Made by a program: the position numbers and the translations under genes. Positions 7,499 through 57,406 of a DNA stretch of 57,406 nt are shown here, one piece after another (position 1 is the stretch's first letter; every line of letters begins with the position of its first letter). This DNA is from a virus: positions 1 to 57,406 of IMG/VR virus record IMGVR_UViG_3300027668_000001. One strand, given 5' to 3'. The notes under the pieces are model-generated. The model was not told the origin of the DNA. It saw only the letters and a program-made list of their open reading frames with translations, and did not search any database.

Positions 7499-7522
7499 TC
7501 TTCTCTATAAGGAACTTAAAGA
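7499..7522 (-). promoter_or_regulatory. Phage RNAP promoter (minus), drives 7430-7038
   Basis: On the minus strand: TCTTTAAGTTCCTTATA then G, start at 7505. One mismatch from the consensus TCTCTAAGTTCCTTATA in this window. It is the only such promoter in the early half and points at the single minus-strand gene there. Confidence 0.8.
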
Positions 7523-14102: not shown

Positions 14103-16397
14103 ATGTCAGCAATCCAAGAGATAGTTGATTACCTTGTCAATAGGGTAGATGGTGTCAGTCCTGCACGTCGAAGACCCCATCTTGCTGGGCTCTTAATGAG
14201 ATTGTCTGGAAATTATAGTGAACGTATGGAAAGGTATGTTATTAAAAGCATATCGATACTCCAAATGCAATTCACTAAGGACACCAGCTCAAGCCCAGCT
14301 GGCACAACCACACTCACTAATGCATCTACTAAGGTAGGTCAGAGTATTGGTAAAGAACTAGACCGAGAGCCCCTCCCGTGGGGCTCTGTGGTGTCCATAG
14401 GAGACCTGTTTATAGAAGCCTTATACAACCTAGGGTTTGTAGACTTATCCTATGCTAAGACCCGTGACAGCTGCCACGTGGTGTCTGCATCACATAGGTG
14501 GTACGAGTTAGGTGTGATCCCAGATAAAGGTGGGAGCTTTCCCTTAGCCTCTACAAGTACCATAAGACCAAGGAATATATCTGGTATGATCCAGAAGATA
14601 AATGGTGTGGAAAGACCAGTCATAAAGGGGCGGGTAGAAGGAGATCCAATAGACCCCTATGCACCTTGGGTACAAGCACTTAACAAACTACAACAGACTG
14701 CTTGGAAGATAAACAAACCAGTCTACAATGCAATGATTGAGAACAAAGAGTTGTTCCTATCTACTGATCCTATCAAAGACAATGATGCTAAGGAGCTAAA
14801 GCGTAGGAGTAAGATGGTAGAGTGGGCATTCATCTCAGAGAAAGCACGTAAGCTATCAGAGCTAGATGAGTTCTACCAGTACCTAGATGTGGACTATCGT
14901 GGTAGGTTCTATTACTGTGAAAGCTTTATGAACTTCCAAGGATCAGATCTAGCTAGGGGATTGTTCAAGTTTGAACACGCAAAGCCAATGACTGCAAGTG
15001 GGTTACAGTGGTTAGCTATACACACAGCCTCTGTCTTCAACATGTCTTACAGCATCGATGAGATACCTGAGTGGTGTACTGCTGACTACAAGACACACCT
15101 TGAGGGTGAGGATTTAGATAACATCTCTGTTGACAAGATGACACTAGAAGATCGCATCAGTTGGACCAACGAGTACATGGATGAGATAGTCGAAGCAGGT
15201 AAACACTCACAGTTCTCTGAGGAAGCTGAGAAGAAAGTGTCTTTCCTTGCTGCATGTGTTGAGTGGTATGAATTTGACTGTGCTTACAAAGACAATCGTA
15301 TCCACATGACAAGCCTACCAATCCCTATTGATGGTAGTAACAATGGTTGGCAACACCTCGGAGCAATCTCTAAGGATGAGAAAACTGGTGAGCTAGTAGG
15401 TCTTATCCCCTCAGAGATACAGAAAGACTTCTATGTGAAGACTGCTAAGGAGACTATAGATCTGTGTAAAGATGATCGACTCAATAGTATCTTGTCTAGT
15501 ATGCCAATGAAAAGAATACGCAAGGGGATATCTAAGCGTGGCTCTATGACTAGGGCATACTCAGCAGGCTCTAAGAAGATCGCTGAGAACATGTTCTTTG
15601 ATTGTAAGTCAGAGGACTACCATACAGAGTACGGCATCACACAAGATGACTGTACTAAGTTATCTAAACTGCTGATCAAAGCAATTGATAAGGTATGTCC
15701 AGGACCCCTAGCTACTATGAGTTACCTACAGAACCTAGCGATGTACCAATTAGGTACACATGTGAAGGTAGACTCAGAGGGATACGAAGCTAACACTGAG
15801 TACAGAAACCTATCTAAGATCCGTGATACCCTCATGAAAAAGAACTTCAAGACTGATGAGGATCTCTATGAGCTTAACGATGTTGTAATTAAACTTAAAG
15901 AATTTACAACAAGACTTAAGCATGGGAAGGGTAAAGATAGGATTGAATGGAGCACACCTTCAGGTTTCCATGTGATCTATGAGAAATGGATCATGCAAGA
16001 TAGGAAAGCCAGAGGACGTATCAAAGGGTATGGTAACAAGACCGGACAGGTTACACACGTAGCCCTTGTGCCTACACGTATGCCAGACAGAAGAGGTTTC
16101 ATCTGTGGTATGTCACCCAACTACATACATTCTATGGATGCTAGTCACATGGCTTTAGTTATCTCTGAGTGGGATGGTTCCTTTGCAGCTGTACACGACA
16201 GCTTCAGTACACATGCTGGTGATGTGGATAAACTACTAGACTTAACTAAACAAGTATTCATACGCATGTATGACTACGATAATTACTTTGAGGTTATACG
16301 TAACTTCATAACAGATGCTGAAGACGATGTGGAACAACCTACATTGGGCAGCTTAGATATAAAGGAGATTGAAAACAGTGACTACTTCTTCACGTAA
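14103..16397 (+). CDS. T7-type single-subunit RNA polymerase (764 aa)
   Basis: Transcribes the phage-specific promoters. Signatures in order: DYRGR (Asp264-Arg268), PIDGSNNGWQH (catalytic Asp410), KGISKRGSMTRAY (Lys478, Met482-Thr483, Tyr486), TPSGFHV (about residues 618-624) and PNYIHSMDASH then VHDSF (catalytic Asp699). About 120 residues shorter than T7 RNAP, mostly in the N-terminal domain. It lies at the end of the replication block, so it is made before the late genes. The promoters it probably uses are the five TCTCTAAGTTCCTTATAG sites, which resemble T7 promoters in layout. Confidence 0.95.
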   Translation: MSAIQEIVDYLVNRVDGVSPARRRPHLAGLLMRLSGNYSERMERYVIKSISILQMQFTKDTSSSPAGTTTLTNASTKVGQSIGKELDREPLPWGSVVSIGDLFIEALYNLGFVDLSYAKTRDSCHVVSASHRWYELGVIPDKGGSFPLASTSTIRPRNISGMIQKINGVERPVIKGRVEGDPIDPYAPWVQALNKLQQTAWKINKPVYNAMIENKELFLSTDPIKDNDAKELKRRSKMVEWAFISEKARKLSELDEFYQYLDVDYRGRFYYCESFMNFQGSDLARGLFKFEHAKPMTASGLQWLAIHTASVFNMSYSIDEIPEWCTADYKTHLEGEDLDNISVDKMTLEDRISWTNEYMDEIVEAGKHSQFSEEAEKKVSFLAACVEWYEFDCAYKDNRIHMTSLPIPIDGSNNGWQHLGAISKDEKTGELVGLIPSEIQKDFYVKTAKETIDLCKDDRLNSILSSMPMKRIRKGISKRGSMTRAYSAGSKKIAENMFFDCKSEDYHTEYGITQDDCTKLSKLLIKAIDKVCPGPLATMSYLQNLAMYQLGTHVKVDSEGYEANTEYRNLSKIRDTLMKKNFKTDEDLYELNDVVIKLKEFTTRLKHGKGKDRIEWSTPSGFHVIYEKWIMQDRKARGRIKGYGNKTGQVTHVALVPTRMPDRRGFICGMSPNYIHSMDASHMALVISEWDGSFAAVHDSFSTHAGDVDKLLDLTKQVFIRMYDYDNYFEVIRNFITDAEDDVEQPTLGSLDIKEIENSDYFFT

Positions 16398-16714: not shown

Positions 16715-19700
16715 TTAGTGTGCATAGTACTGCAATGGAATACGTCTACCGCTTTCGGTTTTGTAACCATTCATTAGTATTTCCTTTTTCAAATCTTTCT
16801 TTGCCTGATTAGTTGAGGAAATAACTTTAGGAAGTCTACTAATTAGGTTCAATTCATTACGAAGAAGACCTTTAAAAGTTTTTAGTTGTTGAACAGTAGG
16901 TTCATTAGGTGGGTTGAATGGATCGTACCCAACTTTTTTCATCTCTAAAACAACCACTTTGGACATACGAATCTTATCGTCCCGCAGCTGCGCTTCTGTC
17001 CTAACTTTATCAGAAGTGTTTGTCAGTTTGCTCATACGTCCCCAGAGATTAGCCATGTACAGATTACCACTGGCAGCAGTAGATACCTTAAGCATCCAAT
17101 CCATATAGACCCTCTCATTAACTGTGAGTTTATCGTCAGGATTCCTACCTTTCATCTTCTCTTCAAAACGTTTAGTTGCCTTAGTCAGGGAGTCACGTGC
17201 CTGTTCTAAGTAACTCCATTCAAGAGTTGCATCCATCCAGTTAAGATTAATCTCTTCTAGTGCAACGTCATAACCATTAGCATCTACTTTAAAAGCATCA
17301 TAGATAGTTAAGAGGTATGCATTACCATTAGATGCCTTGTTCATCCTATCCCAAGACTTGCCAGAGGCAGTCATTGCTACGGTAGCAGCATCGACAGCTT
17401 GAATAGGTGCAACAACAGATCCACCATAGGCAAACTCACCGGGAGTACCTTCAATAGAACCATCTGAGTTTGTCCTATTTCGAACAGCTGATGCTGTAGT
17501 TTCAGTTTCATAGTGAGCAACGTTTGTCTTAACCATCTCACCAGTCTGAGGAGATCTCCTCTTAAAGGTGCTCATAGAAGCTTCATCATAACCTGTAGAG
17601 GATTCACCACCAATATTGATGGCCATACCTGTTGGACCATAAATAATAAAAGGTTCATTCATAGCAGCATGTAGTGAAGCCGCAGCCCTCATAATAGATC
17701 TAGCTTCTCTGGAAGCAGGTGTCATAATCCCTTCAAGTGATACACTATATTTCTCTAAGAGAACTTTAGCTAAGTCTCTACGTGACATAGTAGAATCTAC
17801 AATAGAAAGACTTGGAGCATAAGAACTTTCAGGGTCTTCAAGAAGTTTCTGATTCATAACCTCTAAGACTTCTTCAATGTCAGTTACAAAACTTTCAATC
17901 TCCTTACCATAACCATAAGTCATGATTGTTAACTTAGCTAAATCTCTATTGTTAAACACAGCACGTGCAACATCATTCAGTTGTGGGAATAAATCCTCAC
18001 TGATGTTTGACCATCCACTATCTATACTCTCATTGGCTAATCCCATAAGTCTATCACGGATATCACCATCATCTAAGAGTGTTGTTCTGTTCCCCCTAGC
18101 CCTGAGGACACCAGTGTAGTAAGCCATATTGATCTCACCCATTTGCATACCCTGACTTGCAGGACCATTGGTCTTACCATCCATATAAGCATTGACATAA
18201 CTAATAAATTGTTTATCCTTGGGGTAGTTCCTTTTAAAGTCAACGTACTTAGCGAAGTCTATCAATGTGTCCATAAGAAGTGGGCCATCTTCTTTCTTAT
18301 CTTTAATCATCTTGATAATCATACTATCATAATCACTATTTGGATCAAGGCTAAGCTGATTGAACTGTGGGAATTGTGGAGAATCTAAGGGAACACCATT
18401 AGCAATGGCCTCAGACACAGCTTCATACTGTGCATCAGTCATTTCTAATGCTTGTTGAAGACGTTTACCATACCCATACAGTTCAGACTCTCTGGCTTTA
18501 AGCATAACTTCTCTTTGACGAGGTAAGAAAGTATCACCAGCATCTGTTATTGTATTGCCTGCAGAGTCTTTAACTTTAGACAATAAGATCATGGCATACA
18601 TCTGACGTAGGTTCTTCTCTTGCCTGTTTCCAGGTCTAATAATAGCCCCTACAGGTGCTCTTGTAGCAAATCGAACAGCCTTAGATGTCACTGGGTTGAA
18701 GAAAGATTGCTGAGGTGTCAGCCTCCCCTGAAAACCTTGAACATTATAAGTAAGGTAGTTAATACCATTACGATCTTGGGCTAATGCTTGGACTTCCTGT
18801 GCTAATTTATCCATCAAATTGTTGATGTTCTCTTGTGGAATATAAAGATCTTCATTTAGTTGTGGATTATTTTCCATCCTACGTTCCTGCATCTTAGCAG
18901 CAGCATTAAATTTGTTCATCCTTGATTGACCAACATTGTTGATCTCAGCCTGCCAAGTAGTGTGGTCATTGGACAAGAGTGTAGATAACGCAGTAGAATA
19001 TAAGATCTTCATACGTTGCTTATCAACCACATGGCCTACCTGACCTAAGTTATTAATAGCTTCTTCAATAATCTTACCCATCTTCTGACCAGAATTACCA
19101 CCAGACACTGCCCTAACTACATTCTTACCAACATCAGTATCAACCATTTGGTTAGGTGTTTTCTGAGGTCTCACTATTTGACGAGGGAAAAGTTTCTTAC
19201 GATCAATTTCACCTTCTTTAATAGCTGCCTCACCTTCTGCAGAAAGTGTATATACTATTTGCCGAGTCTTTGGATCAGTAGCGGTTGTAACCAGTGTTGG
19301 GTTAGAGTCTGCCCATAATTGTTTGAACGCAGCACCAAGTGTCTCAGCCTCCTTACGGTTCAGTTTATCTGGTGAAGCTAATGCTTGAACCATAGGATCA
19401 GTCTCAGGCACACCCTGACTTATCATAGCCTGCCTATTCCTACGCTGATACTCAAGATGTATCCTGTTACCTATCTGCCCGTTACCTTCAGCAAGTGTAA
19501 GCGTTTGGTTTACACCTTCCTTAGGTACAGATGTGTCTCCCATTGCCTCTGAAACAGGGTCAACAGTGCTTTCCATATTACCACCAAAAACATCCTCAAC
19601 AATAGCAGAAGCAATTTGAGTATACATTGGATTAGGTATCTTCATACCACTCTCAGATTCTATAATTGCATCTGCCCTACTAATAGCAGCTACGATATTA

Positions 19701-20218
19701 CCATCAGCGGTCTCAGCAATGGCATCTGCAAGTACTGGACCTGATACAGGAGATTCACCCTTAGTCAGTGGGTAAGCTGCATTTCCAAGGGCTGTTAAGT
19801 TTAACCCAAGATTACCATTATTTACATTATCAACAAGAGTCTTTGCACGAGATCTAAGATTACCACCAGCTTCAGATTGGGCTGCGATAGATAACTTCTG
19901 TCGCATAACAGGGGGTGTGACCCGTCTATACCTTTGGTTACCAGTCTGAGCATTGGTAGCCATGTCAGGAACTAAGAATCTGTCATCATTACTTTGTTGT
20001 TCTGGGTTAATTAAATCAGGCGCTAACCCAGATGCAGCCTGTGTGATCTCTGCAATTTGTTCTGGAGTAGTGTTAGCAATATCTTGTAGGATGCCTGATG
20101 AGGCAGGTGAAGATGCAGGTTGTTGAGGGGCTACCTCTTCCTCCTGCCTAACAAATCGATCTTCTAAAGATTGAGAGGGGAGCTCAGCACTCCCCCCTTT
20201 AATTATTGGTATCGCCAT
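16715..20218 (-). CDS. Predicted virion-type single-subunit RNA polymerase (1167 aa)
   Basis: Last gene of the late operon, next to two giant ejection proteins. Motifs of the T7/N4 polymerase family appear in correct order: YNVQGFQGR (Gly498-Arg499; T/DxxGR region, with Gly in the first position); YMDGKTNG (Asp680; motif A DGxxxG); R758-x3-K762-x3-M766-T767-x2-Y770-G771 (motif B, same spacing as T7 R627/K631/Y639); YGPTGMAI (like T7 TPVGFPV); APIQAVDAATV then LTIYDAF (Asp974; motif C). The N-terminal 400 residues are Gln- and Pro-rich then helical. N4 vRNAP is about 3500 residues, but its active mini-vRNAP core is about 1100, close to this length. Packaging in the virion and transcription of early genes are inferred from position. 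SD AAGGAGA precedes ATG. Confidence 0.82.
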   Translation of the reverse strand: MAIPIIKGGSAELPSQSLEDRFVRQEEEVAPQQPASSPASSGILQDIANTTPEQIAEITQAASGLAPDLINPEQQSNDDRFLVPDMATNAQTGNQRYRRVTPPVMRQKLSIAAQSEAGGNLRSRAKTLVDNVNNGNLGLNLTALGNAAYPLTKGESPVSGPVLADAIAETADGNIVAAISRADAIIESESGMKIPNPMYTQIASAIVEDVFGGNMESTVDPVSEAMGDTSVPKEGVNQTLTLAEGNGQIGNRIHLEYQRRNRQAMISQGVPETDPMVQALASPDKLNRKEAETLGAAFKQLWADSNPTLVTTATDPKTRQIVYTLSAEGEAAIKEGEIDRKKLFPRQIVRPQKTPNQMVDTDVGKNVVRAVSGGNSGQKMGKIIEEAINNLGQVGHVVDKQRMKILYSTALSTLLSNDHTTWQAEINNVGQSRMNKFNAAAKMQERRMENNPQLNEDLYIPQENINNLMDKLAQEVQALAQDRNGINYLTYNVQGFQGRLTPQQSFFNPVTSKAVRFATRAPVGAIIRPGNRQEKNLRQMYAMILLSKVKDSAGNTITDAGDTFLPRQREVMLKARESELYGYGKRLQQALEMTDAQYEAVSEAIANGVPLDSPQFPQFNQLSLDPNSDYDSMIIKMIKDKKEDGPLLMDTLIDFAKYVDFKRNYPKDKQFISYVNAYMDGKTNGPASQGMQMGEINMAYYTGVLRARGNRTTLLDDGDIRDRLMGLANESIDSGWSNISEDLFPQLNDVARAVFNNRDLAKLTIMTYGYGKEIESFVTDIEEVLEVMNQKLLEDPESSYAPSLSIVDSTMSRRDLAKVLLEKYSVSLEGIMTPASREARSIMRAAASLHAAMNEPFIIYGPTGMAINIGGESSTGYDEASMSTFKRRSPQTGEMVKTNVAHYETETTASAVRNRTNSDGSIEGTPGEFAYGGSVVAPIQAVDAATVAMTASGKSWDRMNKASNGNAYLLTIYDAFKVDANGYDVALEEINLNWMDATLEWSYLEQARDSLTKATKRFEEKMKGRNPDDKLTVNERVYMDWMLKVSTAASGNLYMANLWGRMSKLTNTSDKVRTEAQLRDDKIRMSKVVVLEMKKVGYDPFNPPNEPTVQQLKTFKGLLRNELNLISRLPKVISSTNQAKKDLKKEILMNGYKTESGRRIPLQYYAH

Positions 20219-55962: not shown

Positions 55963-56320
55963 ATCTGTAGTTATATTGTAGTATATTTTAGGATTCTGTG
56001 TGTATCTGTACAGATTGGAGTACCCCCTAGGTGCTTTGAGGTACATTGAGTGGCTTAGAGAGAGCCTGTAAGTATTGTTTTTATATTAAGTACCCTCATA
56101 TATCTCACAGTACCCCCTCAATCTCTCTAAGGTATCCCTGATGGGGATGGAGTCTCTGAGAGCCCTCAAGGGGTCTCTCATAGCCTCTAAGGTTCTCTCA
56201 GGTACTGTGAGGTACTCTGAGGTATCATAGCTCTGTGAGGTTCTCTGGTGGCATAGGCACTAGCGGGAGGATCGATGTACTGTGAGAACTTCGAGAGACT
56301 GTGGGGCAATGGCATCCTAT

Positions 56321-56343
56321 TCTCTAAGTTCCTTATAGGGAGA
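56321..56343 (+). promoter_or_regulatory. Phage RNAP promoter (plus), before the early block
   Basis: TCTCTAAGTTCCTTATA followed by GGGAGA; predicted start at 56338. The initial GGGAGA is the same as the T7 class III start. The only rightward copy found. It would keep the early/middle genes on after the phage polymerase is made, or prime replication. Confidence 0.85.
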
Positions 56344-56529
56344 AGCTATCCAAGCCTGCCCCTATCCATTAGGTTACTATATATATCTATACTCTCTAAG
56401 TCTCTCTCAGCTCTATCTCAGTATCTCTCAGTGTCTCTCAGTACCTATCAGATAAGACCCAAGCTATGTGTTCTCTTGGTGTCTATTAGGTCTTGTAGAT
56501 GCTAAATGTCATTAGGTTGTAGAGTAAGT

Positions 56530-56552
56530 AATCAGTCCACAGGGGCCTGATT
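56530..56552 (+). promoter_or_regulatory. Conserved hairpin element, copy E
   Basis: Arms AATCAGTCC and GGCCTGATT with one mismatch, loop ACAGG, followed by TGCAGAGG. The middle pairs (C-G, A-T, G-C) differ from the other copies but still pair. It lies upstream of the first genes expected to be transcribed. Confidence 0.6.
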
Positions 56553-56558
56553 TGCAGA

Positions 56559-56676
56559 GGTGTTGTGGGGGTTTCCCTCTCTGCCCTCTCTGCTTTCTCT
56601 CTTGCCTCTCTGTCTCTCTGTCTCTTCCGCCCTCTGCCTGCTCCGCTTCTCTCTGGGGTTGGTCTGGGGGTGGGTC
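56559..56676 (+). other. 118-base A-free tract, mostly pyrimidine
   Basis: Not one A occurs on the plus strand between 56559 and 56676. The centre (about 56572-56654) is CT-rich with repeats of CTCTCTG, flanked by G-rich ends. Base use is unlike the rest of the window. It may form an unusual DNA structure or mark a transcript leader without A. Confidence 0.85.
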
Positions 56677-56695: not shown

Positions 56696-56717
56696 ATATA
56701 TCTTGAAAGGATATACC
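56696..56717 (+). promoter_or_regulatory. SD-in-loop hairpin before 56718
   Basis: ATATC, TTGAAAG, GATAT directly before the ATG, as in the three longer leaders, but without the upstream CAGCAA stem. Confidence 0.65.
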
Positions 56718-56900
56718 ATGCTTATGACAAATACTGAAGTAATGAACACTATAGCACTCGCATATATAGCCAATGACCTTTGTGGTGAAAAGGATATATT
56801 CTGGACCGCAGACGGTGAGCCAATTGTGTATGTTCAGAACAACCACAGTGAATACTACCACTTCGAAGGTGGGTTCTACGACTGTGAAGATAGCTACTAA
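56718..56900 (+). CDS. Hypothetical early protein (60 aa)
   Basis: Start 56718 follows the repeated SD element; the longer frame upstream runs through the A-free tract and is not credible. Acidic with aromatic residues (DIFWTADGEPIVYV, HFEGGFYDCEDSY). First gene of the early block. Not recognised. Confidence 0.75.
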   Translation: MLMTNTEVMNTIALAYIANDLCGEKDIFWTADGEPIVYVQNNHSEYYHFEGGFYDCEDSY

Positions 56901-56977
56901 GTCTTTTTGTTTCAGCAATCGTTATGGTTGCTGTTTCATAAACACTTAACCCAACCTATATCTTGAAAGGATATACC
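56899..56977 (+). promoter_or_regulatory. Structured leader, copy 3
   Basis: Same fold as 51-124, with the stem CAGCAA/TTGCTG and the SD hairpin. It has four extra bases (CCAA) before CCTATATC and ends ACC rather than ATT before the ATG. Confidence 0.7.
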
Positions 56978-57331
56978 ATGAAATTCCCAACGTCAGATAA
57001 GATCATCCTTCGTGCTGCTAAGCGTCTAGCCATACTTGAGGCAGGTGACAAACTTGGCAACGATGTGTGGATCAACAATCCCAAAGCAGATGCTTTAGGT
57101 GATTTCTTTCTAACTTGCTCAAAGAGCGAACTAATACGAATAGTTAAACTATCTCGTGTATGCCCAGATTACGCCTATGAAGCTCTTGACATTACCTATT
57201 TCAACGATGCGGTAACTAAAGCCGATAACAAAGAAGGCGCATTCTTAGATTTCTATTCTAAATTCAACTTGGAACCTAGAGACCTTGCACAAGATCAAAG
57301 ACAAATCTCACTCTTTAGAAGTTTCAACTAA
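56978..57331 (+). CDS. Hypothetical early protein (117 aa)
   Basis: Start 56978 follows the leader SD. Helix-rich, mixed charge (ILRAAKRLAILEAGDKL; SELIRIVKLSRVCPDYAYEAL). The segment ends QISLFRSFN. Not recognised. Its 3' end is the beginning of the 127-bp repeat; across the junction the next gene is the one at 125. Confidence 0.75.
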   Translation: MKFPTSDKIILRAAKRLAILEAGDKLGNDVWINNPKADALGDFFLTCSKSELIRIVKLSRVCPDYAYEALDITYFNDAVTKADNKEGAFLDFYSKFNLEPRDLAQDQRQISLFRSFN

Positions 57332-57406
57332 GTCTTTTTGTTTCAGCAATCGTAATGGTTGCTGTTTCATAAACACTTAACCTATATCTAGAAAGGATAT
57401 ATTATG
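57280..57406. repeat. Right copy of 127-bp terminal direct repeat
   Basis: Identical to bases 1-127. Includes the end of the gene at 56978-57331, a full structured leader and the ATG that corresponds to 125. Confidence 0.95.

Follow-up and report, generated by a model that had tools for sequence, protein, structure and literature searches.

The G-free 5' leaders of plant RNA viruses, of which the omega leader of TMV is the type, are unstructured translation enhancers. Rho utilisation (rut) sites are C-rich and G-poor, sRNAs of the CcsR type in Rhodobacter carry an anti-Shine-Dalgarno loop, and genes are known to avoid short motifs. mRNAs lacking ACA are described as surviving the MazF endoribonuclease (PMC9102682, PMC5408214), and phages with 2-aminoadenine (Z) are described as 'abandoning' adenine, which is chemically replaced genome-wide (PMC8599892). 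The literature was searched for base-free phage leaders, and nothing relevant was found. Here, we describe the genome of a marine phage in which a stretch of more than one hundred nucleotides just upstream of the first early gene contains no adenine.

The window, by which we mean the whole stretch of DNA that was analysed, comprises the 57,406 bases of one virus record. Positions 1–127 and 57280–57406 are identical, 127 bp being the size of an assembly k-mer, and these identical ends indicate a complete genome that was assembled as a circle and has a real length of 57,279. Of the cultured relatives found, Roseobacter phage CRP-7 is the closest, and the window, itself a complete roseophage genome of the CRP-7-like kind, encodes a T7-type RNA polymerase (14103–16397, the early RNA polymerase), a DNA polymerase of family A, and a primase-helicase; no tRNA or tmRNA was detected in it by ARAGORN. 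The rightward early genes start at 56718, pass position 1, and extend to 16.6 kb; the late genes run leftward. Within the late, structural-side block, a leftward gene (16715–20218) encodes a protein of 1167 aa that weakly matches phage RNA polymerase (phrog_414, E 0.0015). The divergent region, which terL adjoins, contains arrays of the 10-bp repeats CTCTGAGGTA and CTCTCTCAGT at 56185–56224 and 56392–56451; the two arrays are in opposite orientation, are spaced like one helical turn, and are a candidate protein-binding or packaging site.

Facing the early genes, about 220 nt upstream of the A-free tract, is a putative phage-RNA-polymerase promoter (ATTCTCTAAGTTCCTTATAGGGAGA, 56319–56343, plus strand). 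With 0–1 mismatch allowed, the promoter 18-mer was found at 7505(−), 35636(−), 54138(−), 55945(−), and 56321(+), and each of the four other sites in the window faces leftward genes. The tract itself (56559–56676, plus strand) lies, as a preliminary description made from the letters alone had placed it, after hairpin E (56530–56552, plus strand), which is directly upstream, and before the Shine-Dalgarno sequence of the first early gene. Hairpin E occurs in relatives whether or not they have the tract, and 4 of the 8 pairs in its stem have changed on both sides with pairing kept. The Shine-Dalgarno sequence, GAAAGGA (56705–56711, plus strand), is a motif that also occurs in relatives, and A use is back to normal there; the gene that follows (56718–56900, plus strand) begins with an ATG at 56718 and encodes 60 aa (MLMTNTEV...). 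A repeat of ~75 bp, consisting of the hairpin CAGCAATCGTTATGGTTGCTG and the Shine-Dalgarno block TATATCTTGAAAGGATATA, recurs between early genes at 48–122, 497–575, 56896–56975, and 57327–57401 with 89–91% identity.

The tract is 118 nt long, with G-rich ends and a CT-rich centre, and its GC content is 61% compared with 41% genome-wide. Counting the bases in 56559–56676 gave A 0, T 46, C 40, and G 32, so the absence of A that had been noted is exact. After the tract, the longest run without A in the window measures 29 nt, and every 118-nt stretch in the rest of the window has at least 15 A. When 200 genomes were simulated with Markov models (order 1 and 3) fitted to the window, their longest A-free runs were 29–30 nt on average and at most 46 nt, which upholds the earlier statement that the tract is far outside expectation; if bases are treated as independent at local composition, the probability of 118 nt without A is ~1e-14. 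The low-complexity CTCTCTG centre was also borne out (LZ complexity z −4.2), and Tandem Repeats Finder scores of the tract are 31–46. As the tract is of low complexity, part of its lack of A could stem from repeat expansion. The only Rfam match was the serC leader, which is below the curated threshold (15.9 bits with 35 required, E 1.1), and no intrinsic terminator, that is, a G+C-rich hairpin followed by a T run, was found in or adjoining the tract. Among 50,697 phage records, no significant similarity to the A-free tracts was found apart from that of CRP-7 to the leader of the relative L230; this and the other similarity statements made here apply to the collections searched.

Comparison with close relatives shows the tract to be genuine and optional. 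A separate, near-identical IMG/VR contig (L003) has a 110-nt A-free tract that differs from that of the window by one SNP and an 8-nt indel, which an artefact would not account for, and assembly or adapter error is ruled out both by this contig and by the isolate CRP-7. In L045, 120 A-free nt lie between the counterpart of hairpin E and the same Shine-Dalgarno sequence; this tract is of full complexity (LZ z +0.4), and similarity to the tract of the window was not detectable, 138 of 200 shuffles scoring as high (z 0.4). In the near-identical L002, the tract and gene 1 are both missing, and at the tract position of about 20 other relatives the A-free runs are 34 nt long at most, so the element is one that many close relatives do without. 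The preliminary description had taken ordinary base use in relatives that share the transcription pattern as a result that would speak against its proposal, and the outcome is divided: L003 and L045 are A-free, whereas L002, L004, and L023 have ordinary bases. The tract and the start of gene 1 co-occur in the window, L003, and L045, and an exact-pattern search of IMG/VR that used the Shine-Dalgarno motif of the clade found them together nowhere else. In 2.53 Mb of phage DNA, there are 23 non-redundant A-free runs of at least 60 nt, all of which are located at the place of the tract and on the early-gene strand, although two are weaker (a tandem repeat running into the contig end in L034 and a run of 65 nt in L080). 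The longest A-free runs in four other cultured phages are 23–43 nt. Independent origins of A-exclusion are few, with about three non-alignable types of tract.

In the phages of the CRP-7 type, the exclusion of A continues through a gene. In CRP-7, the ~706 nt that lead up to the first rightward gene in the annotation contain 13 A, and the corresponding zone of L299 has 6 A in 541 nt. Within the CRP-7 zone lies an unannotated, conserved, A-poor gene of 128 aa (57608–57994 of MK613349, plus strand), in which the A of the start codon is the only A in ~390 nt; the annotated gp72 (57271–57966 of MK613349, minus strand) overlaps this zone and is probably spurious. The A-poor gene is conserved in L230, L241, and L299, and the substitutions among CRP-7, L230, and L241 are concentrated at codon position 3 of the plus strand, indicating that the gene is real. 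At third positions where A would be synonymous, A is found at 0/113 sites in CRP-7, 0/106 in L230, 0/109 in L241, and 0/101 in L299, compared with 1074/2608 (41%) in the other genes of CRP-7 (P ~9e-27). The homologues found in L251 (E 4e-12) and L229 (E 6e-10) begin where their A-free leaders end and use A normally at third positions (24/102 and 28/90, respectively), so A has been removed from the first gene in CRP-7, L230, L241, and L299 but not in L229 and L251. Going from L251 to CRP-7, A gives way to G 14 times, to C 13 times, and to T 23 times, and the Shine-Dalgarno sequence is GAGG in the former and GGGG in the latter. All differences among the leaders of CRP-7, L230, L241, and L229 are C/T, G/T, or C/G changes; because each of the four was picked as an A-free run, these differences are not independent evidence by themselves. 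The protein encoded by the first gene of the CRP-7 type matched no Pfam or PHROG family, and a fold search with a weak model (pLDDT 68) returned only non-significant, mostly OB-fold-like matches. Five CRP-7-type contigs (L293, L296, L297, L306, and L314) terminate where the A-free zone begins or close by, three of them at an identical position, and these ends are possibly genome termini or reflect local hypervariability. Like these phages, the window has on its early-gene strand an A-free stretch that lies between the boundary of the divergent genes and the first early gene, but there the exclusion is limited to the leader, as gene 1 and the remaining transcript use A normally.

Leaders free of G, on the same strand, were found in remoter relatives, with lengths of 281 and 133 nt in L184, 249 nt in L052, and 222 nt in L059. 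These leaders include ORFs in which the start codon supplies nearly the sole G; the gene in L184 has 6 G in 255 nt, and its homologue in L216 has 33 in 300. Mutation bias is possible in these three genomes because G is scarce at their third positions and, where G changes, it is most often to A (13/21). The leaders of L184, L059, and L052 are a possible G-excluding counterpart.

Since unrelated A-free sequences occupy the same place and all runs of at least 60 nt lie on the early strand, the lack of A itself is probably under selection. The best explanation overall, to which we give a probability of about 0.4, is an adenine-excluding zone at the start of the rightward early transcript that acts on RNA and escapes an adenine-dependent activity, and the tract would be this phage's copy of that zone. 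Selection on the RNA is suggested by the constant absence of the base from the early-gene strand and by the end of the zone at the first normal Shine-Dalgarno sequence. In CRP-7, L230, L241, and L299, where the zone continues through the gene, A is gone from the synonymous positions, and in CRP-7 it is gone from the Shine-Dalgarno sequence as well. Early in infection, the lack of A may let the leader (in CRP-7, the entire first mRNA) escape the adenine-dependent activity, for which the most likely candidates would be an endoribonuclease of the host or the phage or an RNA-binding factor that seeks A; the first messages would then survive. Of the possibilities that the preliminary description had listed, a transcript leader without one nucleotide is the one that survives, as relatives and CRP-7 keep unrelated A-free early-strand sequences just upstream of the first early gene.

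Folding of the RNA suggests another explanation. At the 3' end of the tract, a hairpin with only G-C and G-U pairs and a pyrimidine loop is predicted (56626–56674, plus strand), and in the window the plus strand has a fold z of −3.7, with 1 of 1000 shuffles as stable, compared with −0.1 for the opposite strand. The plus-strand values are −3.0 in L045 and −1.9 to −3.1 in the CRP-7 type, again with no such signal on the opposite strand, and the CRP-7-type leaders contain a stem-loop with an anti-Shine-Dalgarno-like UUCCUCCC loop that is unchanged in five leaders, including that of L251. These folds would be expected of a structured regulatory RNA in which G-C and G-U hairpins control translation or antitermination and the lack of A is a by-product, a reading that we regard as unlikely. 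The leader of L299 folds no better than chance (z 0.05), so shared structure cannot be the common cause and was ruled out as the common factor. Moreover, A is also gone from loops, linkers, and the third codon positions of the CRP-7-type gene, none of which structure needs, and the CRP-7-type hairpin offers almost no covariation because it does not vary. It is improbable, too, that the composition reflects ATP-independent transcription, in which the first RNA could be produced even when ATP has run low or is kept back, for instance by a defence response. Composition is what this proposal has in its favour, with no A over 118–224 nt and almost none over 541–706 nt, but downstream genes, start codons, and translation all require A or ATP, and in the window a leader of ~220 nt that contains A probably precedes the tract.

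An element of the DNA, such as a triplex, an unwinding element, a packaging site, termini, or the avoidance of restriction sites, would fit the position of the tract next to terL in a divergent region that could plausibly hold the genome ends, and several CRP-7-type contigs break there. We nevertheless consider a DNA-level role quite doubtful, since the strand is always the same and avoiding short motifs does not demand the loss of every A. Three forms of it that had been suggested at the outset did not hold up: the longest pyrimidine run is 11 nt and the longest purine run 5 nt, so the tract is not the long homopurine-homopyrimidine mirror repeat of a triplex; its 61% GC is far from the AT-richness of an unwinding element; and the lack of conserved sequence between the window and L045 does not support a protein-binding array. 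A neutral origin, through slippage from an A-free seed or through a mutator (a deaminase or a base-biased polymerase) that removes A, is likewise given little probability. It would suit the repetitive tract of the window and the intergenic regions of the clade, which are rich in lineage-specific repeats; however, slippage alone was rejected for L045 owing to the full complexity of its tract, and a deaminase or A-to-G mutator was rejected because G, C, and T take the place of A about equally often. Replacement of amino acids, purging of synonymous sites, and conservation of the gene also argue for selection. Finally, the tract could be read as a hydrophobic, in-frame N-terminal extension of gene 1, as in the window, L003, and L045 no stop codon interrupts the frame from the tract to gene 1. 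An open frame is trivial here because no frame of A-free DNA can contain a stop codon, the 8-nt indel of L003 shifts the frame, and A is absent at all codon positions, making a coding role extremely improbable.

A broader form of the adenine-exclusion reading, which we put forward only tentatively, is a whole-base 'lipogram' in the first transcript, excluding A in the window, L045, and the CRP-7 type and perhaps G in L184, L059, and L052, that hides the first RNA from a base-specific host activity; it would span the leader, the Shine-Dalgarno sequence, and, in some cases, a complete gene. If true, this would be an anti-host strategy at the level of the base and not of the motif. The exclusion of A suggests that the first RNA of the phage is under strong base-specific pressure, possibly from an unknown defence, and is directly testable because both the phage and its host are in culture (CRP-7 and FZCC0042). 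We know of no counterpart in which selection against one base over hundreds of nucleotides has purged synonymous sites, amino acids, and a Shine-Dalgarno sequence. The resemblance to the TMV omega type is that one base is excluded from a 5' leader just upstream of the first gene; there, however, the missing base is G, whereas here it is A and the RNA can fold through G-C and G-U pairs, and the exclusion in the CRP-7 type, unlike that in the omega leaders, runs through a gene. Like a rut site, the tract is a long pyrimidine-rich stretch in an early leader, but it is 73% pyrimidine and 27% G and is predicted to fold, whereas rut sites are unstructured. The UUCCUCCC loop on a stable stem in the CRP-7-type leaders recalls the CcsR-type sRNAs, although this element is known as a leader and not as a free sRNA, and the window and L045 are without the loop. 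With the ACA-less mRNAs as described (PMC9102682, PMC5408214), the tract would have in common that a message is spared because a cut site is absent; those mRNAs are man-made and lack a triplet, whereas the tract is natural and lacks a whole base, and its nuclease is hypothetical. The Z phages, as presented in PMC8599892, likewise abandon adenine, but here A is avoided in one segment of otherwise ordinary sequence.
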